Shown here piece by piece: positions 29,765 through 40,717 of a stretch of 64,000 bases of DNA (position 1 is the first letter of the stretch; each line of letters opens with the position of its first letter). The position numbers and the translations under genes were made by a program. This DNA comes from an uncultured Schlesneria sp. (GTDB taxonomy: Bacteria; Planctomycetota; Planctomycetia; Planctomycetales; Planctomycetaceae): positions 62,001-126,000 of the forward strand of contig CAIQIR010000132.1 in assembly GCA_903871875.1 (NCBI GenBank), written 5' to 3'. Below the pieces are notes generated by a model, which saw nothing but the letters and a program-made list of their open reading frames with translations, ran no database searches and was not told the DNA's origin.

Positions 29765-30841
29765 ATGGAAGAGAAAAAACCTTCCACTGCGGATATCCTC
29801 GCGAAAATCCGAGCTCAAAAAGCGGCAGCCGCCGCTGCAGCGGGAGATGTTCCTGCGGCTCCGGCTGAAACGCCAGCACCTGCGACAACGCCAGCTCCGG
29901 CTGCCGAGACGGTTGCTCCGGCGCCAGCCACGTCAGGTGCCAAGCCGACGTCGACCAAGGATATTATGGCTGCAATTCGCGGTGGTGGTGCGAAGCCCGC
30001 AGCCGCGGCTCCGCCTGCTGCTGTCGCTCCGCCTGCCGGTGATGCACCGAAGCCCGCTGTCGCTGCTGCTGGTCCGCGTCCTTCCGTTCAAGACATGTTG
30101 AAAGCGGTTCGCGAAGGGAAAGTCGGTGCAGCCGCCGCAGCGCCGTCGGCCACCGCGAAAGTGGGTACGCCTGTTGCCGCACCTCCCATGCCGGCCAAGC
30201 CAGTGGTGGCGTCGAAGGCGGCCAAGCCCGCTTCAGCACGACGAAGCCTGGCTGTCGTCGCGACCGTCGCGAGTATCAGTGCGGCGAGTTTCGTGCTCGG
30301 GTTTGCCGTCGGCAGTAATTTGCTGATCGCCTTGGGTGCGTGTGTCTGGGGTGTCTTGATGACGCCGTTCGCCGCGGCCTGGTTCTCGGTCGCGAGTATT
30401 GGCGGGATCTGGACGTTAGGGACGGCTCGCTTCATGTTCCCTAATGTGCTGGTCGAGCCTCCGTCGAAATTCAAGGTTGGTCCGCTCTCTGACTATCCCA
30501 TCAATACGGTCTCCAATAAGTGGAAAGATCAGTTTGGTGTCTGGATCGTGCATACGGATCAATATGAGGGGCGGAATATGATTTTCGCTCTGACGTCGGT
30601 TTGTACACATCTGGGTTGTACGCCGAACTGGCTGGATGGTGAGCAGAAATTCAAATGTCCTTGCCACGGTTCGGGGTTCTACATTACGGGCGTCAACTTT
30701 GAAGGCCCTGCCCCTCGTCCGCTGGAGCGGGCTGGATTGCGCATCGCCGAGGATGGCATGCTCGAAGTCAATAAGAGTGTGAAGTACCAGGAAGAGATGG
30801 GGCAGTGGTCGGATCCGACGTCGTTCGTGTCCGTCGTCTGA
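29765..30841 (+). CDS. Rieske 2Fe-2S protein with long Ala/Pro-rich N-terminal tail
   Basis: 358-residue iron-sulfur subunit of a bc/b6f-type quinol-cytochrome c reductase. The C-terminal Rieske domain has C280-T-H-L-G-C285 and C298-P-C-H301, the four [2Fe-2S] ligands plus disulfide cysteines. Two hydrophobic stretches lie near residues 166-220 and anchor it. The first ~160 residues are unusual: an Ala/Pro-rich, low-complexity tail in which a 10-residue peptide recurs three times, STADILAKIR (7-16), STKDIMAAIR (63-72) and SVQDMLKAVR (107-116). If the first helix is the Rieske anchor, this tail is cytoplasmic. Typical Rieske proteins are under 200 residues. It is the first gene of the respiratory block, followed after 65 bases by cytochrome b. 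Confidence 0.93.
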   Translation: MEEKKPSTADILAKIRAQKAAAAAAAGDVPAAPAETPAPATTPAPAAETVAPAPATSGAKPTSTKDIMAAIRGGGAKPAAAAPPAAVAPPAGDAPKPAVAAAGPRPSVQDMLKAVREGKVGAAAAAPSATAKVGTPVAAPPMPAKPVVASKAAKPASARRSLAVVATVASISAASFVLGFAVGSNLLIALGACVWGVLMTPFAAAWFSVASIGGIWTLGTARFMFPNVLVEPPSKFKVGPLSDYPINTVSNKWKDQFGVWIVHTDQYEGRNMIFALTSVCTHLGCTPNWLDGEQKFKCPCHGSGFYITGVNFEGPAPRPLERAGLRIAEDGMLEVNKSVKYQEEMGQWSDPTSFVSVV

Positions 30842-30906: not shown

Positions 30907-31680
30907 ATGTCTGTTGGTGACTACATTCGAGGCTCGCAGGTCTGGAAGAGTATCTTTCGGCATCCGGCGCCGGTGGATCGCCGCAATCGCGTCGTGGTGA
31001 TGCTCACCAATTTCTTTTTGCATCTGCATCCGGTGTCGATCAAGCAGCAAGGGATCGCCCTGTCATACACTTGGTGTATGGGTGGGATCACATTCTTTCT
31101 GTTTCTGGTCGAAACGATCACCGGCGTGTTGCTGATGTTCTATTACCGGCCGACGCTGGAATTCGCCTTCAACGACATTTTGGCGCTGCGCGATGTGACC
31201 ACGCTGGGGATCATGCGCGAGGTGCATCGTTGGTCGGCGCATGCCATGGTGATCACTGTCTGGTTGCATATGTACCGCGTGTTCCTCACGGGCAGCTATA
31301 AGCCGCCGCGAGAATTCAACTGGGTGATCGGCGTGCTGCTGCTGGTGCTGACGCTGCTGTTGTCATTCACCGGTTATTTGCTGCCTTGGGATCAATTGGC
31401 GATCTGGGCGATCACCGTCGGTTCCAACATGGCACGTGCCACGCCATTCCTGGGCTATGAAGGTCCGGGGGCGCAGTTGCTGAATATCGGCGGTTATGAC
31501 CTCATTACCAACGGCAGCGACGCTCGCTTTTTGCTCCTGGGCAGTCGGTTCGTCGGTGAAGCGACATTGAATCGATTTTATATTCTGCACTGCGTCGCCA
31601 TTCCGCTGGTGGTGTCGCTGCTGATTGCGATTCACTTCTGGCGCGTCCGTAAGGACGGGGGCATCAGTCAGCCGTTGTGA
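30907..31680 (+). CDS. Cytochrome b, b6-like N-terminal subunit
   Basis: 257-residue integral membrane subunit with the four-helix haem-binding core of cytochrome b. Ligand pairs are H107/H121 (VHRWSAHAMVITVWLH) and H228/H243 (LHCVAIPLVVSLLIAIH, 14 residues between, as in cytochrome b6). GYLLPWDQLAIWA and RFYILH are further family blocks. Cys57, in YTWCMGGITFF, sits where cytochrome b6 has the cysteine that covalently holds haem c(i), so a third, covalently bound haem is predicted. The split from the C-terminal part also follows the b6f/b6c pattern. It oxidises quinol with the Rieske protein; menaquinone is likely but not shown. Confidence 0.93.
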   Translation: MSVGDYIRGSQVWKSIFRHPAPVDRRNRVVVMLTNFFLHLHPVSIKQQGIALSYTWCMGGITFFLFLVETITGVLLMFYYRPTLEFAFNDILALRDVTTLGIMREVHRWSAHAMVITVWLHMYRVFLTGSYKPPREFNWVIGVLLLVLTLLLSFTGYLLPWDQLAIWAITVGSNMARATPFLGYEGPGAQLLNIGGYDLITNGSDARFLLLGSRFVGEATLNRFYILHCVAIPLVVSLLIAIHFWRVRKDGGISQPL

Positions 31681-31760
31681 TTGACAATGGCTGAACGGTG
31701 TGGCTTATGGCAAATCATGAGTAGTCTACTGATACAGTTAGGTGGCTGGCGACAAGCACT

Positions 31761-33122
31761 ATGACTCACTTGACACATAATCCCGATCTCACCGGCTCCG
31801 TCATTTTTGGATTGGGGTGGGTTTATCTGCTGCTGTTCTTCATGAACATCGCTTGGACCAAGCGCAGTCTGGCCTTGGACGGGATTTGTCACACCGGTTT
31901 GGGGGTGCCCTATGCCGCTCTGTGGGCTGTTTACGCCGCCATGTTGTTGATGATTTCGATTACGCATTTGACGGGCTGGGACACGCCACAGCAGTTCAGT
32001 CTCGTGATGCCAGAATTTCTCAAATATCCGATCAACAAAGCCTCGAATCCGGTGGCATTCTTCGTTGGTTCCACGACGATTTACATTCTGATGATCGTCT
32101 TGCGGAAATGGTGGACGACGCCAACCGCCGGCTGGATTTTGCTGAATTTGTCCATTCTGTTTCTGGCACTCAGCATCACCGACTACGACTTCCGCCAGAT
32201 CGTGGGCAAGCCTGACAATGTTCCCATTGTTGCGATGCTTTACATCGTCGGTTTCTTCACCTGGTTGTACTTCAAGAAGTCGGTCGATAACGACGCTCGT
32301 AAGGCGGCCGGTCGACCGTTGCTGGAGCAGGAAAACGCCGAAAAAGTGCTGACTTGGCCGGATCTGGTCTACACCGAATTGGTTTGCATGGTGCTGGTAA
32401 CGGCTGTGTTGATCGCCTGGGGTATCGTCTTGCAGGCTCCGCTCGAAGAGCCTGCTTCGGCCGCGAAGACACCGAACCCGTCAAAGGCTCCTTGGTACTT
32501 CCTGGGTCTGCAAGAGATGTTGGTGTACTTCGATCCCTGGATGGCCGGTGTCGTGTTGCCCAGCGTGATTCTGGTGGGATTGATGGCCGTTCCGTACATC
32601 GATTTCAACAAACTCGGCAACGGTTACTACACCTTCAATGAGCGAAAGTTCGCGGTGTCGACCTTCTTGTTCGGGTTTCTGCCGCTGTGGGTGGCGATGA
32701 TTGTGTTGGGGACATTCCTGCGAGGGCCGAACTGGAACTTCTTCAGTCCCTATGAATTCTGGGACGTCCACAAACTGGAGCTGTTGAACAATATCAATCT
32801 GTCCGAGCTGTTCTGGATCAAGGGGCTCGGTCAGCCGTTGCCGGTGGTTCCGCAAAATGCCAGCTTCCCTGTGCAGGCTTGGTACATTGTCTGCCGAGAA
32901 GGGGTAGGTTTGCTGGCGGTGGCGTTCTATTTACTGGCGCTTCCGAACCTGATGGCCGCGACGGTCTTCAAGGGTTTTTACATCAAGATGGGTTTTTTGC
33001 GGTACATGGTGTTGGCCAACTTGATGCTGATGATGATGTCACTGCCAATCAAGATGGTGCTTCGCTGGGCCGTCAACCTGAAGTACATCGTTGCGATCCC
33101 CGAGTGGTTCTTCAATATTTAA
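31761..33122 (+). CDS. Cytochrome b subunit-IV-like protein with about five additional N-terminal helices
   Basis: 453-residue polytopic membrane protein with roughly ten hydrophobic segments. The second half corresponds to subunit IV of b6f/b6c complexes: PDLVYTELVCMVLV, then NPSKAPWYFLGLQEML, where APWY replaces the PEWY quinol-site motif, much as in Gram-positive b6c complexes, and a helix leading to VPYIDFN. The first ~190 residues (helices near 12-31, 46-68, 90-113, 117-137 and 148-166) have no counterpart in the ordinary ~160-residue subunit IV and are not recognised. Helices near 367-397 and 404-428 also extend the C-terminus. It probably completes the quinol site with the b6-like subunit and provides extra contacts. 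Confidence 0.85.
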   Translation: MTHLTHNPDLTGSVIFGLGWVYLLLFFMNIAWTKRSLALDGICHTGLGVPYAALWAVYAAMLLMISITHLTGWDTPQQFSLVMPEFLKYPINKASNPVAFFVGSTTIYILMIVLRKWWTTPTAGWILLNLSILFLALSITDYDFRQIVGKPDNVPIVAMLYIVGFFTWLYFKKSVDNDARKAAGRPLLEQENAEKVLTWPDLVYTELVCMVLVTAVLIAWGIVLQAPLEEPASAAKTPNPSKAPWYFLGLQEMLVYFDPWMAGVVLPSVILVGLMAVPYIDFNKLGNGYYTFNERKFAVSTFLFGFLPLWVAMIVLGTFLRGPNWNFFSPYEFWDVHKLELLNNINLSELFWIKGLGQPLPVVPQNASFPVQAWYIVCREGVGLLAVAFYLLALPNLMAATVFKGFYIKMGFLRYMVLANLMLMMMSLPIKMVLRWAVNLKYIVAIPEWFFNI

Positions 33123-33199: not shown

Positions 33200-36100
33200 A
33201 TGCCGGCGACCGACGATTATCTCCGTAGCCCCAAATCAATGCACCAGGTCTTCTGCGCAAGCGCGGTCCTGTTGCTGGCCGTCACCATTTGGATGATGTG
33301 GGCCGATTACAATGACGAATGGCGCCCCATCCAGCGCAAGGCTTTTGCGTACCAGGCGCTGCGGGACAAAACCCGCGAAGCCAGGATTAAGGATGATCCC
33401 ACTTTTCAGAAGAATGTGGCAGAGCTGAAAGCCAAGGTTGATGAATCCACGAAGGACCTGAGCGAACACAAAGCGAATCTGAGCGAGCTGGAAAAGCAGG
33501 CGAAAGCGGCTAAAGAAAAGGTCGACAACCATCTGCGCGATTTGAAGATTCGTCGGGCCGAACGCGATGTGGCTCGTGCCGATTACAATCTGGGTGTGCG
33601 CGATAGCGTGCCCAATCTGGCCGCTCTGCAACAGAAATTCACCGACAAAGAGAACGAAGTCAAAGGTAAGGAAGCGAAATTCGTCGAGCTGTCGTACGAA
33701 TCCGAGCAAGCGAAGGCTGCCGTGGCCAGCGTCACTGCGAAACGCGATGCGGCGGAAGCGGCTCTGAAGAAATCCGAAGCCGAAATTACGGTGATCCATG
33801 CCTCGATCCAGAAGATTGCCCCCGAACAAACGAACTGGGATGGCACACCGACCCGGCTGGATGGCACGCTGCGAAGTTTGAAGTTGCAGTTGATGCAATT
33901 GCCGATCGTCGACGGCTTCAACGGTCGCGAGCGAATCACACAGGACTGGATGCCGAAACTGGAAATCGATCTGGGTGGCATGGGTAAGGTTTCCCGGTTC
34001 GATCGTTGCCGTACTTGTCATGCGATGATCGATGCGGTGGACGTCGGTACGTCACCCGCGTATCCGGTTGGCACCGAAAAAGAAGGTAAATACCCTCAAC
34101 CGTATGCTTCGCACCCGCGACTGGATCTGTACCTGACTTCGTCCAGTCCGCATCCGCTGCCAAAGTTTGGTTGCACGGTCTGCCACGAAGGGCAGGGGTC
34201 GGGGACATCGTTTACGAACGCGTCGCACACTCCGAATGACCCCGTGGAAATGGAGAAATGGCAGGGCGACCATAAGTGGTTTGACAATCACTTCTGGGAG
34301 CATCCCATGTATCCACAACGATTCCAGGAATCGGGCTGTATCAAGTGCCATGTGAACGTGGTGGAATTGGGTGTCAACGACAAATTCGGCGCCACGGCAC
34401 CGAAGGTGTTCCGTGGTTATCAGTTGGTCAAAACCTATGGTTGCTTCGGTTGCCACGAGATCTCGGGCTTCGATGGGACAAAGGTTGTCGGACCCGATCT
34501 GCGGCTTGAGCCGGCCACGTCAGAAGAGGCCGAAAAGATCGCCAAGGATCCGCTGCAAGTCGCGGGAAAGATGCGGAAGGTAGGGCCTTCGCTGCGTCAC
34601 TCAGCATCGAAGTCGGATCCCGGTTTCATTTCCTATTGGACAGAAGAACCGAAGCGGTTCCGTCCGACGACCCGCATGCCACAGTTCTTCAAGTTGGATA
34701 ACCAGCAAGATGAGATGGCACACACGAACAATCCGATCGAACTCGCTGCGATCGCCCATTATCTGCAGTCCAAGTCATTGCCCTTTGAGACACTGTCGCC
34801 GGCGCCTGGTTACAAGCCCGATGCCGCTCGGGGTCAAAACCTGTTCGCCACGCGCGGATGTGTCGCCTGCCATTCGCACAGCTCGGTGTCGGCCGTGGAC
34901 GCGACCTTCGGACCTGAACTGTCGAAGATCAATGCCAAGCTGAAATCGGGTAAGGCCGGATTTGACTGGCTGTATACCTGGATTCGTGAACCCGAACGAT
35001 ATCATCCCCGGACCAAGATGCCGCATCTGTTTCTGGAAGCGGAAGGAACGGGCGATAGCGCGATTGATCCGGCCGCCGACATCGCAGCATTCCTGTTGAA
35101 GCTCGAAGGTGATCCGGCCAGCTTCAAGTCGACGGCGACCTACGAAACGGCGCAAGTTGACGAAGCGTCTTTGGACAATCTGATTTCGTCGATGCTCAGT
35201 AAATCATTGACGGCCGATCAGATTACGGAACTGCTGAAGACGGGCAAGTACCCGATTCCCGCCGAGAAGATCAAGACGGACGAAATCGAATTGATCGGTG
35301 GTGGCGCCGAGTTTTCTGCGGAAGAATGGAAGCAACGAAAACTGACCTACGTCGGTCGCAAGACCATTACGAAATACGGCTGTTACGGTTGCCATGATAT
35401 TCCGAACTTCGAATACGGTCGTCCGATCGGAACGGCCCTGCAGGATTGGGGCAAGAAGGACCGGTCGCGGCTGGCATTTGAGCACATCCATGAATACCTG
35501 CATCATCACGGTAATCAGGATTTGGGAGTGGAGTTCGAATCAGTCGACGCCAAGCAAGCGGCGCGGTTGAAGTTGGAATCCGCCGTGGGTGTTCGCGTTT
35601 CGAAAGTGAAACCAGGCCATCACGCTGGCGGTGAAACACTGAAGTTGGACGATGTCATCGTCAAGGTCGATGGAATTCCCACTCAGAACGACGCTGAATT
35701 GCGAACGCAGTTGGGACGCGGTGTGGTCGGGTCGGAAATGGCCGTGACGGTCGTGCGTGCTGGCCAGGAAGAGACGGTGAAGGTCATCGCCGACGGTTCG
35801 CTGTTTGACCGTGTGGAAGAAGGCGTTGGTCGAGGTGAACGTGGTGAGTTCAAGACGGATCAGGAAAAAGATCGGGAGTTGTCTGCGGCCTTCTACTACG
35901 AGAGTTTGACCCATCACGGGCGTCCCGGATTCCTCTGGCAGAAGTTGCGACAGCCGCGCAGTTATGACTACAAGACGGTGGAAACGAAATCATCCTACGA
36001 CGATCGTTTGCGGATGCCGAAGTTCCCCTTCTCGGAAGACGAAATCGACGCGATTGCGACGTTCATTCTGGGTCTGACGGCCGAACCACCGATGGTCGAT

Positions 36101-37276
36101 TACATGTATAATCCGTCGGGTGCCGCAGGGGCGAAGATTCGCGGCGAACAATTGATTGACCAATACAACTGTTCTGGCTGCCATGTGCTGGAGATGCCAA
36201 AGATTCGCTATGGTGCGGATCTGGACAGTTTGACCGGATCGGATACATCGGGTGAATATCCCGAAGCCGTGAAGTTGTTGATGGCACTTCGTCCGCCGCG
36301 AAACGGTTTGACCGGTGGCAAGAAGTTCGTCAAGGGCGAAGAGGGTCCCAAGACCTTGTCGTTGCTCGAACTTCATGGTCTGGTCACAAGTGCTCCCAAT
36401 CCGGAAGACGCTCCGGAAGATCAAGAATACGTGGTGGAACTGTGGGAGAACCTGAAGGCGGCTGGTAAGAACTTCCTGCCGACTTACAAGTTCATCTTCC
36501 CGGCGGCGAATCTGGACGCGATCGAACCCGCTCGCGGCGGACGTTTCGCGGAATGGTTGGTCGATCGGCTGGTCGACTCCAAGCAAGCCAAAGAGCGATC
36601 ATTGGCTTGGCAAATGTCGCCACCTCCGCTTTACAAAGAAGGAACCAAGGTCCAGACACCCTGGTTGTTCAACTTCCTGCGGAATCCGGGGAAGATTCGT
36701 CATACGACCGTATTGCGAATGCCGCGGTTCAACATGAGTGATGACGAAGCTCAATCGCTGGCGAATTATTTTGCGGCCGTCGACGGAACTCCTTATCCCT
36801 ATCAATTAATCGCCGAACGCGAGCCCGGTTATCTGCACGAACACGAGGCAGAGTTCCACGCCGATTTCCCGGCCAAGAAAGACGACTATCTGAGTGAGTC
36901 GTGGAAAATGCTGAACGCCCCGTTGTGCATCAAATGCCACTCGGTGGGTGGACAACAAGTGAAGATTTCGAATCCGGCGACAGATATTCGTGGGCCGAAC
37001 CTCGATTTGGCGGGTGACCGATTACGACCCGATTGGACGCTGTTGTGGTTGTACAGACCGCAGTGGGTTACGCCCTATACGTCGATGCCGGTTCCGTTGC
37101 CGCCTTTGCAACCGGGTGCTCAACCTCGCTTCCCGGACATTTTTGGTGACAATGGGTTGAAACAAACGATTTCTCTACGTGATGCACTGATGAATTACCA
37201 CAAGTTGTTGGAGCGAGAAGGCAAATCGGGATCTCAGCCAACTCCGGCGGCGACGCCTGTGGGAGGTGATGACTAA
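33200..37276 (+). CDS. Giant membrane-anchored octahaem c-type cytochrome with coiled coil and PDZ domain
   Basis: 1358-residue protein. An N-terminal helix (about residues 16-34) anchors it; residues about 40-200 are a charged coiled coil. Eight CxxCH motifs follow near residues 270 (CRTCH), 325 (CTVCH), 379 (CIKCH), 415 (CFGCH), 554 (CVACH), 728 (CYGCH), 991 (CSGCH) and 1243 (CIKCH), so eight c-type haems are predicted. Between the sixth and seventh, about residues 785-860, is a PDZ-like domain (GVRVSKVKPGHHAGGETL, then DVIVKVDGIPTQND). Surrounding segments look like repeated cytochrome c folds with axial Met candidates in repeated R/K-M-P or TRMPQF motifs. It sits in the bc operon where cytochrome c1 or f would be expected, so it likely accepts electrons from Rieske. 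Its stop TAA overlaps the next ATG by one base. Confidence 0.93.
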   Translation: MPATDDYLRSPKSMHQVFCASAVLLLAVTIWMMWADYNDEWRPIQRKAFAYQALRDKTREARIKDDPTFQKNVAELKAKVDESTKDLSEHKANLSELEKQAKAAKEKVDNHLRDLKIRRAERDVARADYNLGVRDSVPNLAALQQKFTDKENEVKGKEAKFVELSYESEQAKAAVASVTAKRDAAEAALKKSEAEITVIHASIQKIAPEQTNWDGTPTRLDGTLRSLKLQLMQLPIVDGFNGRERITQDWMPKLEIDLGGMGKVSRFDRCRTCHAMIDAVDVGTSPAYPVGTEKEGKYPQPYASHPRLDLYLTSSSPHPLPKFGCTVCHEGQGSGTSFTNASHTPNDPVEMEKWQGDHKWFDNHFWEHPMYPQRFQESGCIKCHVNVVELGVNDKFGATAPKVFRGYQLVKTYGCFGCHEISGFDGTKVVGPDLRLEPATSEEAEKIAKDPLQVAGKMRKVGPSLRHSASKSDPGFISYWTEEPKRFRPTTRMPQFFKLDNQQDEMAHTNNPIELAAIAHYLQSKSLPFETLSPAPGYKPDAARGQNLFATRGCVACHSHSSVSAVDATFGPELSKINAKLKSGKAGFDWLYTWIREPERYHPRTKMPHLFLEAEGTGDSAIDPAADIAAFLLKLEGDPASFKSTATYETAQVDEASLDNLISSMLSKSLTADQITELLKTGKYPIPAEKIKTDEIELIGGGAEFSAEEWKQRKLTYVGRKTITKYGCYGCHDIPNFEYGRPIGTALQDWGKKDRSRLAFEHIHEYLHHHGNQDLGVEFESVDAKQAARLKLESAVGVRVSKVKPGHHAGGETLKLDDVIVKVDGIPTQNDAELRTQLGRGVVGSEMAVTVVRAGQEETVKVIADGSLFDRVEEGVGRGERGEFKTDQEKDRELSAAFYYESLTHHGRPGFLWQKLRQPRSYDYKTVETKSSYDDRLRMPKFPFSEDEIDAIATFILGLTAEPPMVDYMYNPSGAAGAKIRGEQLIDQYNCSGCHVLEMPKIRYGADLDSLTGSDTSGEYPEAVKLLMALRPPRNGLTGGKKFVKGEEGPKTLSLLELHGLVTSAPNPEDAPEDQEYVVELWENLKAAGKNFLPTYKFIFPAANLDAIEPARGGRFAEWLVDRLVDSKQAKERSLAWQMSPPPLYKEGTKVQTPWLFNFLRNPGKIRHTTVLRMPRFNMSDDEAQSLANYFAAVDGTPYPYQLIAEREPGYLHEHEAEFHADFPAKKDDYLSESWKMLNAPLCIKCHSVGGQQVKISNPATDIRGPNLDLAGDRLRPDWTLLWLYRPQWVTPYTSMPVPLPPLQPGAQPRFPDIFGDNGLKQTISLRDALMNYHKLLEREGKSGSQPTPAATPVGGDD

Positions 37277-38139
37277 TGTTGAATTCTGGATACTTGCTGC
37301 GAGCCATCGCTGGTTTGTTATTGGCCTCATTCGCCATCACGCTGACAGGCTGTGGTAAGCTGGTTTCGGGTGCGAATCTTCAGGCCACGGTGAAGTACAA
37401 GCCAAGTACGACCGCCGGCGCGACGACGGAAGCCGCAGCGACATCAGACGCAGGGGCTACAGCCGCCACCAGCGAAGGTGTGGGAACGGTTAAGGGGAAA
37501 GTTGAATTGGTCGGGGCGTTCACTCCGCTGGCTCCTCTGCACGTCAAAGGAGCCGATGTGAAGGATGCAGCGGTCTGTTCGGCTGTCGAAGTCCCGGATG
37601 AAACCATCCTGGTCAAAGATGGCGGTCTGGCGAATGTGTTCATTTATTTGAAGAAGGCCCCGAAAGTTTCCGCGGCCGCCCCCGAGGGCAATCTGATTTT
37701 TGACCAGAAGAACTGCATGTTCAAACCGCACGCGATGACGATGCGGGTGGGTCAGGTGGTCAAGGTTTTGAACAGTGATGCGGTGGCTCATAACACCCAC
37801 ACTTACGGCAAAAAGACCACGCCATTCAACTCGATCGTCTCGCCGAATGATGCGGTAGGTGCGCCACTGGTTTACAAACAGGCGGAACAAGAACCGATCT
37901 CGGTGGGTTGCGATATCCATCCCTGGATGAAAGCATATCATCTGCCGATTGATCATCCGTTCGTGGCATTGAGTGCGGAAGATGGTACGTTTGAGATCAA
38001 GGATTTGCCGGCCGGGAAGCATGAGTTCAAGGTTTGGCATGAAGCGGGTGGGTTGCTGGAAAAGTCGCTCGTCGTGACGGTCAAACCGGGCGATAACGAG
38101 CTGCCGATCAAGGTGACGCCTTCGCAGTTAGGGAAATAG
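37276..38139 (+). CDS. Cupredoxin-like lipoprotein
   Basis: 287-residue lipoprotein with lipobox LTGC (Cys26). A low-complexity Thr/Ala linker (about residues 38-68) leads to a beta-sandwich with type 1 copper ligands: H172 (in DAVAHNTH; H175 is an alternative), then C212, H215 and M218 in VGCDIHPWMKAY. The order His-Cys-His-Met is that of plastocyanin-like proteins. The last ~60 residues (DGTFEIKDLPAGKHEFKVWH) resemble a carboxypeptidase-regulatory or transthyretin-like extension. It overlaps the octahaem gene by one base (TAATG), indicating translational coupling. It probably carries electrons as a tethered copper protein between the cytochromes and the oxidase, but this is inference from position. 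Confidence 0.85.
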   Translation: MLNSGYLLRAIAGLLLASFAITLTGCGKLVSGANLQATVKYKPSTTAGATTEAAATSDAGATAATSEGVGTVKGKVELVGAFTPLAPLHVKGADVKDAAVCSAVEVPDETILVKDGGLANVFIYLKKAPKVSAAAPEGNLIFDQKNCMFKPHAMTMRVGQVVKVLNSDAVAHNTHTYGKKTTPFNSIVSPNDAVGAPLVYKQAEQEPISVGCDIHPWMKAYHLPIDHPFVALSAEDGTFEIKDLPAGKHEFKVWHEAGGLLEKSLVVTVKPGDNELPIKVTPSQLGK

Positions 38140-38197
38140 GCCTGCCATAGGGGCCCTGTGTTTTGCAGAGTTCGACGTTTTAGCACTGACGGTGCAG

Positions 38198-39697
38198 ATG
38201 ATGTTTCGTGTGATTTGTCCGAATTCAACCTCGCGTACGACCCGTCTGAGTTTTCAGGGGGTAATCGTGTGTGGGTGGGCGTTGCTCAGCTTGGGTTGTG
38301 GCGCTGGTCCGCAGGCCGAGTTCAAGTACCGCGAGGCGACCGACGATTTGATTTCTGACGCCGAAAGGTCCGTCAAATCAACTCTCAAGGATTCGTTTGG
38401 CACTCCCAACGAACTTGTCGCCTGGGAGCGGTTTCCGATCAATTACGGCGGGATCAAGGGGGCGGTCGCGTCAGCGGCCGGAGATAAAGCCGTCATCGTC
38501 ACCCTGGAAGGTGAATCAGAAAAGATTCGTAACAAAACGCCGATTCTCTGGTTAACAGGTTCCGTGGCGGGTGACAAAACGCCGCTTGTGACGGTCGCGG
38601 GCTTCAATGCCGAAACGAAACAATTGACCTTGGCTGGTGTCTCGGAACTGCCGAACGCCGGTGACCGATTTGTCGTGGGATTCGGCGAAGACCTGCAGCT
38701 CGGTCGTCACGTCTACATGAAGAACTGCATGCATTGCCACGGAGTCAGTGGCGATGGTGATGGGCCGACCGGTCAGTTCCTGAATCCCCGTCCTCGCGAT
38801 TATCGGAACGGTCAGTTCAAGTTCACTGCGACCAAGTCTGGCGAAAAAGCCACTCGCGACGATCTTCATCGGATCGTGAAATACGGGATTCCCGGCACCT
38901 ACATGCCGTCATTCCTGTTACTGGGTGAACGTGAAACGAAAGTCGTGGTGGAATATGTGCGATGGCTGGCGATTCGCGGTGAGTTCGAGAAACGCCTGGT
39001 GGCCGAACTTTCCTCTGATTATTCCGAGACCTCGATTGCTGACTCGGTGAGAAAGGCCGAAGCGGCTTATGCCGAGAAGAAGAAGAACAAGGAAGAGGCA
39101 GAGAAGCCGCTGTCAGCTAATAAAGTGGCTAAGGCCGCGGCGTCCGAGTTTGCCAAGTATTCGAAAGAAGACCTGCCAGCCGCCATTGAAGAAACGGCCA
39201 ATCTGCTGACGGACGCCTGGACGCGGGCGGAAGAGCCCGACACTGTTATTGTGCCCAGCATTCATCGAGTGGACGACACGGCTGAATCACGTGAACGTGG
39301 GCGGCTGCTGTATATGTCAGACAAAACCAAGTGTTACACCTGTCACGGGATGACGGGTCGTGGCGATGGTGCGGCAACGGAAGATTTCTGGCCCAAGCCG
39401 GGAACGACCGAAAAATTTGCCAACCGAGGTCTGCATGACGAATGGGGCAATCAATTGAAGCCACGTAATCTGACGTTGGGTCAGTACCGCGGTGGACGTC
39501 GTCCCATCGATCTGTTCCGCCGTATGTACGCGGGGATCAAAGGCACGCCGATGCCGGCGTTCGGTGGTACGGCACTCAAAGATAACGAGATCTGGGATCT
39601 CGTGAATTTTGTGATGAGTCTTCCTTATTCATCGCGTCAGCCGTCACCGGCTGCGGGAGGAAATATGGCAAAGCTCGACGAAAAACCGGCACATTGA
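38198..39697 (+). CDS. Dihaem c-type cytochrome lipoprotein
   Basis: 499-residue predicted lipoprotein (lipobox LSLGC, Cys34 from this start). The first ~170 residues are beta-rich and unrecognised. Two cytochrome c domains follow, with CMHCHG near residue 177 and CYTCHG near 379, each followed by GDGDG or GRGDGA and by a Met candidate in YMPSF and TPMPAF. A Lys/Glu/Ala-rich helical linker (about 270-330) joins them. This fits a flexible periplasmic carrier between reductase and oxidase. The start is uncertain: GTG 38192, ATG 38198 and ATG 38201 are all in frame and no clear ribosome binding site is visible; 38198 was used. Oxidase subunit II follows after about 190 bases. Confidence 0.88.
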   Translation: MMFRVICPNSTSRTTRLSFQGVIVCGWALLSLGCGAGPQAEFKYREATDDLISDAERSVKSTLKDSFGTPNELVAWERFPINYGGIKGAVASAAGDKAVIVTLEGESEKIRNKTPILWLTGSVAGDKTPLVTVAGFNAETKQLTLAGVSELPNAGDRFVVGFGEDLQLGRHVYMKNCMHCHGVSGDGDGPTGQFLNPRPRDYRNGQFKFTATKSGEKATRDDLHRIVKYGIPGTYMPSFLLLGERETKVVVEYVRWLAIRGEFEKRLVAELSSDYSETSIADSVRKAEAAYAEKKKNKEEAEKPLSANKVAKAAASEFAKYSKEDLPAAIEETANLLTDAWTRAEEPDTVIVPSIHRVDDTAESRERGRLLYMSDKTKCYTCHGMTGRGDGAATEDFWPKPGTTEKFANRGLHDEWGNQLKPRNLTLGQYRGGRRPIDLFRRMYAGIKGTPMPAFGGTALKDNEIWDLVNFVMSLPYSSRQPSPAAGGNMAKLDEKPAH

Positions 39698-39889: not shown

Positions 39890-40717
39890 GTGGGCAGGTT
39901 TTGGGCACTATTTTTCATTGTGACTGCGGTCATCACGTTCGTGGTGTCGTGGATTTCTCCGAGCATGGGGTGGTGGTTCCCCACGGATGGCGTGGCCGTT
40001 TTTGGAATGGCCCAATCGACGCTGGGTCGCAAGATCGATGATTTGTTTTATCTGATCCTGTGGATCGTTTCCGTGACGTTCGTGGCGACGAATGTCGCGT
40101 TGGGTTACGCCTTGTGGCGCGGGGCGACGATCAAGCCTGAAGAGAAGGTCTGGTTCTCGCACGGCAGTCACAGCCTGGAAGTCATTTGGACGATCGTTCC
40201 GTCGGTCATCCTGTTGTTCATCGCCCTATATCAGTTGGACGTCTGGGCGGCCTACCGCGTCAGAGGTTTCATCAAAGATAGCGATGGAAAGCCGAAGCAG
40301 ATCGTGGCTGTGGCCGAAGTCACCGCTCGTCAGTTTGAATGGCGGATCCGTTATCCCGCTCGAGGCAAGACTCTGAAGCCCATCCCCCAAGCCGACGACA
40401 TTTACACCGTGAATGAATTGCACGTTCCGACGGGAGATCTGGTTTCGATCACTCTGCGAACCGACGATGTCCAGCATGCTTTCTTCGTGCCGGAGCTTCG
40501 GGTGAAGCAAGACGCCGTTCCGGGCAAGTTGATTCCCGTCTGGTTTGATACGCTGGTCACCAAGGATTACGAAATGTTGTGTGCCGAGCTATGCGGTTGG
40601 GGACACTACAAAATGAAAGCCAAACTGGTCGCGCAGTCGACGGAAGATTTCGAAGCGTGGAAGGACAAGGTCTCCGAAGAGCAATTTGATGATGGCTATC
40701 GCAAGCCAGCCGAATAG
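39890..40717 (+). CDS. coxB: Cytochrome c oxidase subunit II
   Basis: 275-residue subunit II of a haem-copper oxidase. A hydrophobic N-terminus and two further transmembrane helices (WIVSVTFVATNVALGYALW region, and VIWTIVPSVILLFIALYQL) precede the periplasmic cupredoxin domain. The binuclear CuA site is complete: H196 (DVQHAFFVPEL), then C231, E233, C235, H239 and M242 in CAELCGWGHYKM. There is no fused cytochrome c domain, so an external donor (copper or dihaem lipoprotein upstream) is required. ARQFEWRIRYP carries the conserved aromatic Trp region. The start is GTG at 39890, the only start before the first helix. It opens the oxidase part of the block. Confidence 0.95.
   Translation: MGRFWALFFIVTAVITFVVSWISPSMGWWFPTDGVAVFGMAQSTLGRKIDDLFYLILWIVSVTFVATNVALGYALWRGATIKPEEKVWFSHGSHSLEVIWTIVPSVILLFIALYQLDVWAAYRVRGFIKDSDGKPKQIVAVAEVTARQFEWRIRYPARGKTLKPIPQADDIYTVNELHVPTGDLVSITLRTDDVQHAFFVPELRVKQDAVPGKLIPVWFDTLVTKDYEMLCAELCGWGHYKMKAKLVAQSTEDFEAWKDKVSEEQFDDGYRKPAE

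Follow-up and report, generated by a model that had tools for sequence, protein, structure and literature searches.

A 64,000-nucleotide stretch of DNA from an uncultured Schlesneria sp. of the Planctomycetota (assembly GCA_903871875.1, contig CAIQIR010000132.1, positions 62,001 to 126,000; the whole stretch is called the window below and is numbered from its first letter) encodes an octahaem cytochrome c with a PDZ domain nested inside one of its cytochrome domains. In our view this protein probably serves a planctomycete b6f-type quinol:acceptor oxidoreductase as its cytochrome-c subunit, replacing cytochrome f, and the PDZ domain is probably an inserted accessory docking module. The proposal is built on computed architecture, gene order, conservation of haem ligands, identity and nesting of the PDZ domain, and its distribution among homologues. 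What is new here is one PDZ domain inserted at shifting sites of a widespread planctomycete octahaem respiratory subunit; a subunit with eight haems was as such already known.

Architecture of the octahaem protein

The ATG-started open reading frame (ORF) at 33200-37276 of the plus strand encodes a protein of 1358 amino acids. A sequence-only reading of the window had described it as one chain carrying a membrane anchor, a coiled coil, eight CxxCH motifs and a PDZ-like domain, and this description was borne out by the ORF itself, Kyte-Doolittle hydropathy, heptad scoring and Pfam searches. Residues 13-36 are the sole hydrophobic anchor of the chain. The coiled-coil stretch comprises 171 residues with only three prolines and three glycines, and its heptad score was matched by none of 1000 shuffles; SMC-type coiled-coil matches, far below their own cut-offs, were obtained at residues 68-219. 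The CxxCH motifs start at residues 270, 325, 380, 415, 554, 728, 991 and 1243, and their number compares with a mean of 0.0035 in residue shuffles of the same protein. From the sequence, haems 1-3 of the chain read as one trihaem bis-His module and haems 4-8 as five class-I His/Met domains, with the putative distal ligands assigned by invariance and position together with the established rules for c-type cytochromes.

Conservation of the haem chain and gene order

Homologues were collected at three ranks around the window's genome (its family, its class and its phylum), and all belong to the Planctomycetota. A single-sequence scan of genome contigs gave nine near relatives, the nearest named ones being mostly Schlesneria records. 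A 15-member profile matched the octahaem gene in 226 of the 397 genomes of the class (E <= 1e-40); the remaining 171 had no match at this threshold, so the gene is not universal in the class. The 170 sources, window included, yielded 167 distinct proteins once the identical copies L057, L137 and L141 had been dropped. The alignment used here has 165 rows spanning 32 family codes. It omits L010 and L061, which are cut by contig ends before their last haems, and retains L169 and L203, which reach a contig end yet hold all eight motifs; L106, L107, L108, L112, L113, L114 and L115, which an earlier 60-row alignment lacked, are all present in it.

Conservation of the haem motifs in homologues, on which the sequence-only reading had made its case depend, was observed throughout, with eight motifs in all 165 aligned proteins. 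As extracted, 163 of them show all eight; L066, which was over-trimmed at its start, has six in the extracted row and eight in its open frame, and L108 also has eight over the whole open frame. Haems 3 to 8 are present in 165/165 rows, and the gaps at haems 1 and 2 are those of the trimmed L066, plus L108 at one cysteine. Each of the methionines 493, 607, 939, 1174 and 1296 is found in all 165 rows, and each of the histidines 305, 318 and 343 in 164, the sole exception being the trimmed row L066.

The gene order up to the octahaem gene is Rieske, then b6-like cytochrome b, then subunit IV. The octahaem gene was thus correctly placed by the sequence-only reading directly after two cytochrome b genes, from the second of which (31761-33122) it is separated by a gap of 77 bases. 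Rieske, b6 and subunit IV genes were observed upstream on the same strand in 144 of the 167 loci; of the 23 without the full upstream set, 13 end within 2.3 kb upstream. When seven operon proteins were scanned with Pfam, neither cytochrome f nor cytochrome c1 was matched at E values up to 1, and the cytochrome b is b6-like, in agreement with the earlier suggestion that the octahaem chain stands in place of cytochrome c1/f.

Identity and place of the PDZ domain

A PDZ domain had been expected at about residues 785-860. The Pfam family PDZ_2 (PF13180) matches residues 774-862 with 40.7 bits against a curated cut-off of 27 (E 3e-10), and a sequence search of solved structures matched the domain to PDZ1 of DegP (E about 5e-6). 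An AlphaFold2 model of 311 residues, built like a longer one of 1129 residues on an alignment of nine sequences only, has a mean predicted local distance difference test score (pLDDT) of 53.5, while the ten-residue blocks of its PDZ part score about 60-88, mostly at least 70. The PDZ part alone was used, and in a Foldseek search it resembled PDZ1 of DegQ/DegP (E 3.5e-6), so that the structure search also returned the fold that had been predicted.

The domain does lie between haems six and seven, as first described; it is not, however, part of a spacer. A place in the spacer between domains 6 and 7 is rejected because CxxCH728 and Met939 flank residues 774-862, which nests the PDZ domain within the sixth cytochrome domain. 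Many relatives are without the PDZ domain, as the family survey shows: their alignments break off at about residue 774 and restart at about 867 with few bases between.

An artefact, be it a frameshift, a misassembly or a chance PDZ-like sequence, has a negligible probability. The same fusion occurs in independent species, the domain is under purifying selection (see below), and both profile and fold searches match it; artefact and chance motif are refuted by the homologues. In the window's own genome PDZ_2 was matched at 26 places, of which 22 gave an open frame, and CxxCH was seen only in the frame of the octahaem gene (frames were partly seen, and four places gave none).

Distribution of the PDZ domain among homologues

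A PDZ hidden Markov model (HMM) built from 16 segments matched 84 of the 167 proteins, its 16 seeds included, with one PDZ domain in each and never two. The reversed-sequence control gave one match (E 0.66), and the weakest true matches were L112 (E 4e-4), L199, L212 and L174. Among the 165 aligned proteins, the domain lies in the haem-1 loop (site A) in 54, in the linker before haem 6 (site B) in 14 and in the domain-6 loop (site C) in 16; the remaining 81 have none. By the HMM, a PDZ domain is present in 54/57, 14/19 and 16/22 of the enlarged loops at sites A, B and C, respectively. Pfam found PDZ families in 6/8 enlarged haem-1 loops and 12/15 enlarged linkers before haem 6, five of these 18 matches (L095, L099, L100, L101 and L102) being below the curated cut-offs.

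Site A was observed in 15 family codes, and sites B and C are confined to the family of the window. Site C corresponds to one clade of 16 including the window (core-column trees: support 1.00; Shimodaira-Hasegawa-like approximate likelihood ratio test, SH-aLRT, 100), and all 16 members keep the domain. Site A is a clade with the PDZ domain in 52/52 members, plus two deep rows of unsure placement, on which it bears that the core tree (106 rows of the alignment, chosen at under 72% identity) contains long branches that meet, including L112 with L219. Site B is scattered, with eight rows in one clade, two forming a pair and three branching early. At least 8 changes of site label are required on the core tree, against a mean of 43.4 for shuffled labels, and site B alone requires 4.

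One way to account for this pattern is that a single ancestral PDZ domain was relocated within the gene, rather than several being captured. We regard this as doubtful. In an unresolved tree of 69 PDZ sequences (44 of the octahaem family and 25 from the window's own genome, one of these being the window's own copy repeated), a single origin for the domains of all three sites was not rejected by the approximately unbiased test (p-AU 0.351; 0.484 for sites B and C together), which is in keeping with relocation. The number of changes on the core tree, for site B in particular, argues against it, as does the PDZ tree itself, where site-A domains stand apart from those of sites B and C, albeit with a weak split. 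One and the same respiratory cytochrome has acquired a PDZ domain at three different places, by repeated capture or by relocation.

From the coiled coil and the PDZ domain, the sequence-only reading had suggested that the chain may be the scaffold of a large reductase assembly as well as its electron acceptor. As a general reading this holds only in part. A PDZ domain as part of the general design of the octahaem subunit is rejected: by the HMM 81/165 homologues are without it, and the domain-6 site is found only in the clade of 16, so that any scaffold function common to the family would have to do without the PDZ domain. The view that PDZ domains are rare in respiratory cytochromes fails as well within the octahaem family, where 84/165 proteins carry one, and the combination with haem c is known from MamP and MamE (PMC3971196). 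A scaffold role is plausible for the coiled coil, by analogy with the helices of Kustd1485 (PMC12954380).

Two other loops of the chain, CxxCH415-Met493 and CxxCH991-Met1174, appear as further insertion hot spots. They are enlarged in 61 and 19 of the 165 rows, inserts in the second loop reach about 290 residues, and the HMM places no PDZ domain in either. Pfam scans of two of the CxxCH991-Met1174 inserts, those of L094 and L066, gave no match above cut-off. Inserts of about 65-185 residues other than PDZ were also seen at the PDZ sites themselves (site C: L059, L060 and L136; site B: L083, L079 and L097; site A: L094). Five such inserts were scanned with Pfam, with weak matches for L059 (Rotamase_2, E 0.019), L083 (EF-hand_12, E 0.015) and L079 (RibLong, E 0.04) and none for L094 and L097.

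Possible function of the inserted domain

The hydrophobic-Gly-hydrophobic pattern, which we take to be that of the carboxylate-binding loop of PDZ domains, is retained in 82 of the 84 domains (A 53/54, B 14/14, C 15/16) in a search that was permissive, covering a stretch of 60 residues. Ten gene pairs of site C were compared, and in the eight with a finite synonymous rate (dS), which is often saturated in these pairs, the ratio of nonsynonymous to synonymous rates (dN/dS) of the PDZ domain is 0.03-0.25. The low ratio speaks for purifying selection and not for decay. The dN of the PDZ domain exceeds that of both haem-core stretches in nine of the ten pairs, the exception being L132-L135.

These data have to be weighed against a passive insert, that is, loops which tolerate insertions and a ligand-free PDZ domain which acts as a spacer or shield between haem domains and recurs only through the abundance of such domains in these genomes. 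The inserts other than PDZ at the three sites (3/57, 5/19 and 6/22 enlarged loops at A, B and C), the large unnamed inserts at two further loops, the 26 PDZ_2 places of the window's own genome and the faster change of the PDZ domain relative to the haem core are all as expected from such an insert. We nevertheless judge it quite unlikely. A passive insert does not account for the lack of PDZ domains, by the HMM, in the enlarged loops at the two other sites, for the retained loop pattern and the purifying selection, for the persistence of the domain in every member of the site-A and site-C clades, or for the limit of one PDZ domain per protein.

Rieske/cytochrome b complexes are dimers. The PDZ domain might then mediate self-association, giving a dimer of complexes, or might pack on its own cytochrome domain, much as the MamP dimer is held mainly through PDZ-PDZ contacts (PMC3971196). 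The position of the PDZ domain varies by lineage, and a self-contact would have to form in different places unless the loops are spatial neighbours, which leaves this explanation unlikely in our opinion.

A docking module on a b6f-type complex is thus the reading we prefer, with the following electron path and partner. Quinol would be oxidised at the b6/Rieske site, and the Rieske head with its cluster would pass electrons into the eight-haem chain, both steps being taken from what is known of the family. From there the electrons would most likely pass to the dihaem cytochrome or to oxidase subunit II, whose genes lie directly downstream. The octahaem chain would be anchored to the complex through its N-terminal helix and its coiled coil, the latter probably wrapping round the complex in the way modelled for Kustd1485 (PMC12954380). 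Insertion of the PDZ domain between CxxCH and Met of the sixth cytochrome domain would date from the ancestor of the clade that includes the window. Its docking role, which we infer from sequence features, would likely be to hold a partner near the haem chain, such as a soluble electron acceptor, an oxidase or an envelope protein.

In addition to the permissive loop search and the saturated dS values given above, a number of observations weigh against this reading. Ten of the 167 loci break the gene order in spite of sufficient flank: L079, L107, L175 and L219 have both cytochrome b genes and no Rieske match, L114 has Rieske, b6 and subunit IV all downstream of the octahaem gene, L115 and L225 have a Rieske match alone nearby, and for L106, L113 and L222 not one of these genes lies within the 3.9-5.2 kb seen. 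The PDZ domain is absent from the 81 homologues mentioned. No discriminating C-terminal ligand was found when the last eight residues of Rieske, b6, subunit IV and cupredoxin-like proteins were compared by eye in up to 60 loci per site class: the C-termini of the first three are alike in loci with and without the PDZ domain, and those of the cupredoxin-like proteins are variable in all site classes. As the C-termini do not clearly differ between the two kinds of loci, no ligand is named. The window's own genome also encodes one NrfD-like protein (G000:C70:57053-58027), possibly of an alternative complex III, and has two cytochrome b ORFs besides those of the window, with 650 and 634 residues (G000:C137:77264-77764 and G000:C104:98244-98729); hence the complex of the window is not its only such complex. 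On the geometry of haems and PDZ domain, the model of 1129 residues of the chain was discarded at a mean pLDDT of 37.6.

Taken further, the distribution invites a bolder hypothesis, which we put forward tentatively and hold to be possible rather than probable. The eight-haem chain would be a fixed, modular chassis into which different lineages independently took up exactly one PDZ domain, with at least three loops used as sites, each domain tethering a lineage-specific acceptor or supercomplex partner. If this is true, the exit of the respiratory electron chain has been rewired through domain insertion into cytochrome domains.

One conserved architecture in 165 proteins of 32 family codes makes it likely that the octahaem chain is a solution to the last step of the Q-cycle shared across the phylum and not an anammox oddity. 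The presence of a PDZ domain in one of three loops in about half of the proteins suggests that inserted domains serve to adjust how the respiratory chain is wired. The insertions also provide a natural experiment, with the same haem chain carrying a docking domain at loop A, B or C or none at all, and a comparison of these variants would show whether bacteria use PDZ domains to recruit electron acceptors or to build respiratory supercomplexes.

The operon and neighbouring genes

The coordinates of the operon and of the parts of the octahaem protein are collected in Table 1.

Table 1. Genes and protein features of the octahaem operon, in window positions
Feature	Position	Strand	Evidence
Rieske iron-sulphur protein, long Ala/Pro-rich N-terminal extension	29765..30841	+	PF00355 E 1.2e-7; CTHLGC at residue 280, CPCHGS at 298
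b6-type cytochrome b, Cys57 at covalent haem c_i/c_n place of b6	30907..31680	+	PF00033 E 3.5e-41; YTWCMGGIT and His positions
Subunit-IV-like C-terminal cytochrome b, enlarged, 453 aa	31761..33122	+	PF00032 E 1.7e-4, above cut-off; APWY (APWYFLGLQE) at Qo-motif position
Octahaem cytochrome c, probable electron-accepting subunit of the complex	33200..37276	+	8 CxxCH, as in every aligned homologue (165)
N-terminal membrane anchor, residues 13-36	33236..33307	+	Kyte-Doolittle
Coiled coil, about residues 45-215	33332..33844	+	Heptad score; SMC-type matches
Trihaem bis-His module: CxxCH 270, 325, 380; His 305, 318, 343 probable distal ligands	33983..34399	+	Cytochrome_C7 PF14522 E 4e-8; His conservation
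Haem motifs of five class-I (His/Met) domains: CxxCH 415, 554, 728, 991, 1243; Met 493, 607, 939, 1174, 1296	34442..36940	+	PF00034 E 6e-19; Met 165/165
Cytochrome domain 6 (approximate bounds), PDZ-interrupted	35342..36079	+	CxxCH 728 and Met939 on either side of residues 774-862
PDZ domain, residues 774-862 (site C)	35519..35785	+	PF13180 E 3e-10; Foldseek DegQ/DegP PDZ1
Cupredoxin-like secreted protein	37276..38139	+	H/C/H/M pattern by eye; no Pfam match above cut-off
Dihaem cytochrome c, candidate onward electron carrier	38192..39697	+	PF00034 E 1.7e-20, 2 stretches
Cytochrome c oxidase subunit II, first of following oxidase genes	39890..40717	+	COX2 PF00116 E 1.6e-10

In the Rieske protein, the Ala/Pro-rich extension of about 160 residues precedes the membrane segment and contains three similar [KR]P[ST]xxxD[IM][LM] motifs. 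The subunit-IV-like protein has about ten hydrophobic segments in its 453 residues, presumably more than plant subunit IV. The best NCBIfam matches of the two cytochrome b genes (30907-33122) were ExtP (E 3.3e-77) and ExtQ (E 2.7e-15), both below cut-off; ExtP and ExtQ are proteins of selenite/tellurite operons. A same-strand homologue of the cupredoxin-like gene follows the octahaem gene in 149 of the 167 loci; it lies elsewhere in two, and 16 gave no match, some of them because the locus ends. An oxidase subunit I gene, named by eye from its ORF sequence, is also found downstream. Between the Rieske and octahaem genes of the window there is no NAD(P) oxidoreductase ORF, and since oxidase genes lie downstream, the complex more likely serves respiratory quinol oxidation than the formation of NAD(P)H.

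Comparison with known systems

With cytochrome b6f the window shares the split b6/subunit IV, a Rieske protein with both cluster motifs, and Cys57, which we take to be the equivalent of b6 Cys35, the cysteine of haem c_i. It differs in the octahaem chain standing for cytochrome f, in the enlarged subunit IV, and in the APWY found where PEWY is the usual Qo motif. With no cytochrome f match and an octahaem chain instead, the complex is b6f-like and not a standard b6f complex. The PDZ domain, for its part, is closest by sequence and fold to PDZ1 of HtrA/DegP, and the octahaem protein has no protease domain. No description of a PDZ domain in this octahaem subunit was found in the literature searched, which covers few subscription journals.

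Two Rieske/cytochrome b complexes in which a hexa- or octahaem cytochrome c replaces cytochrome f are described from the anammox bacterium Kuenenia stuttgartiensis (PMC12954380). In that account, subunit IV has five helices, the long helices of Kustd1485 encircle half of the complex in the model, and the Kustd1480-1485 complex includes an NAD(P) oxidoreductase; the word PDZ is nowhere in the main text. Locus L220 has the order Rieske, b6, an FAD/NAD oxidoreductase-like gene (named by eye), subunit IV and an octahaem protein of 948 amino acids, which has eight haem motifs, aligns with that of the window and carries no PDZ domain by the HMM. As far as the published account goes, the make-up of Kustd1480-1485 is the same as that of the L220 operon, and together they indicate that the replacement of cytochrome f was already known in kind. 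Kustd1480-1485 and the window are alike in the b6-like cytochrome b, the subunit-IV-like protein and the multihaem cytochrome c in place of cytochrome f, whereas the window operon is without the oxidoreductase ORF, carries the PDZ domain and is followed by oxidase genes.

A PDZ domain and c-type haem are already known together in MamP and MamE (PMC3971196). These proteins, like that of the window, carry c-type haem domains and a PDZ domain on one membrane-anchored chain. A magnetochrome (MCR) identity was considered for the octahaem protein and rejected, as Pfam gives Cytochrom_C and Cytochrome_C7, and the NCBIfam match to MamE covers the PDZ domain only (22.7 bits against a cut-off of 800). 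The magnetochrome has another haem fold, whereas the window protein has class-I and c7-like domains and belongs, on our reading, to a quinol-oxidising complex. Of the two systems, the window alone has its PDZ domain nested inside a cytochrome domain.

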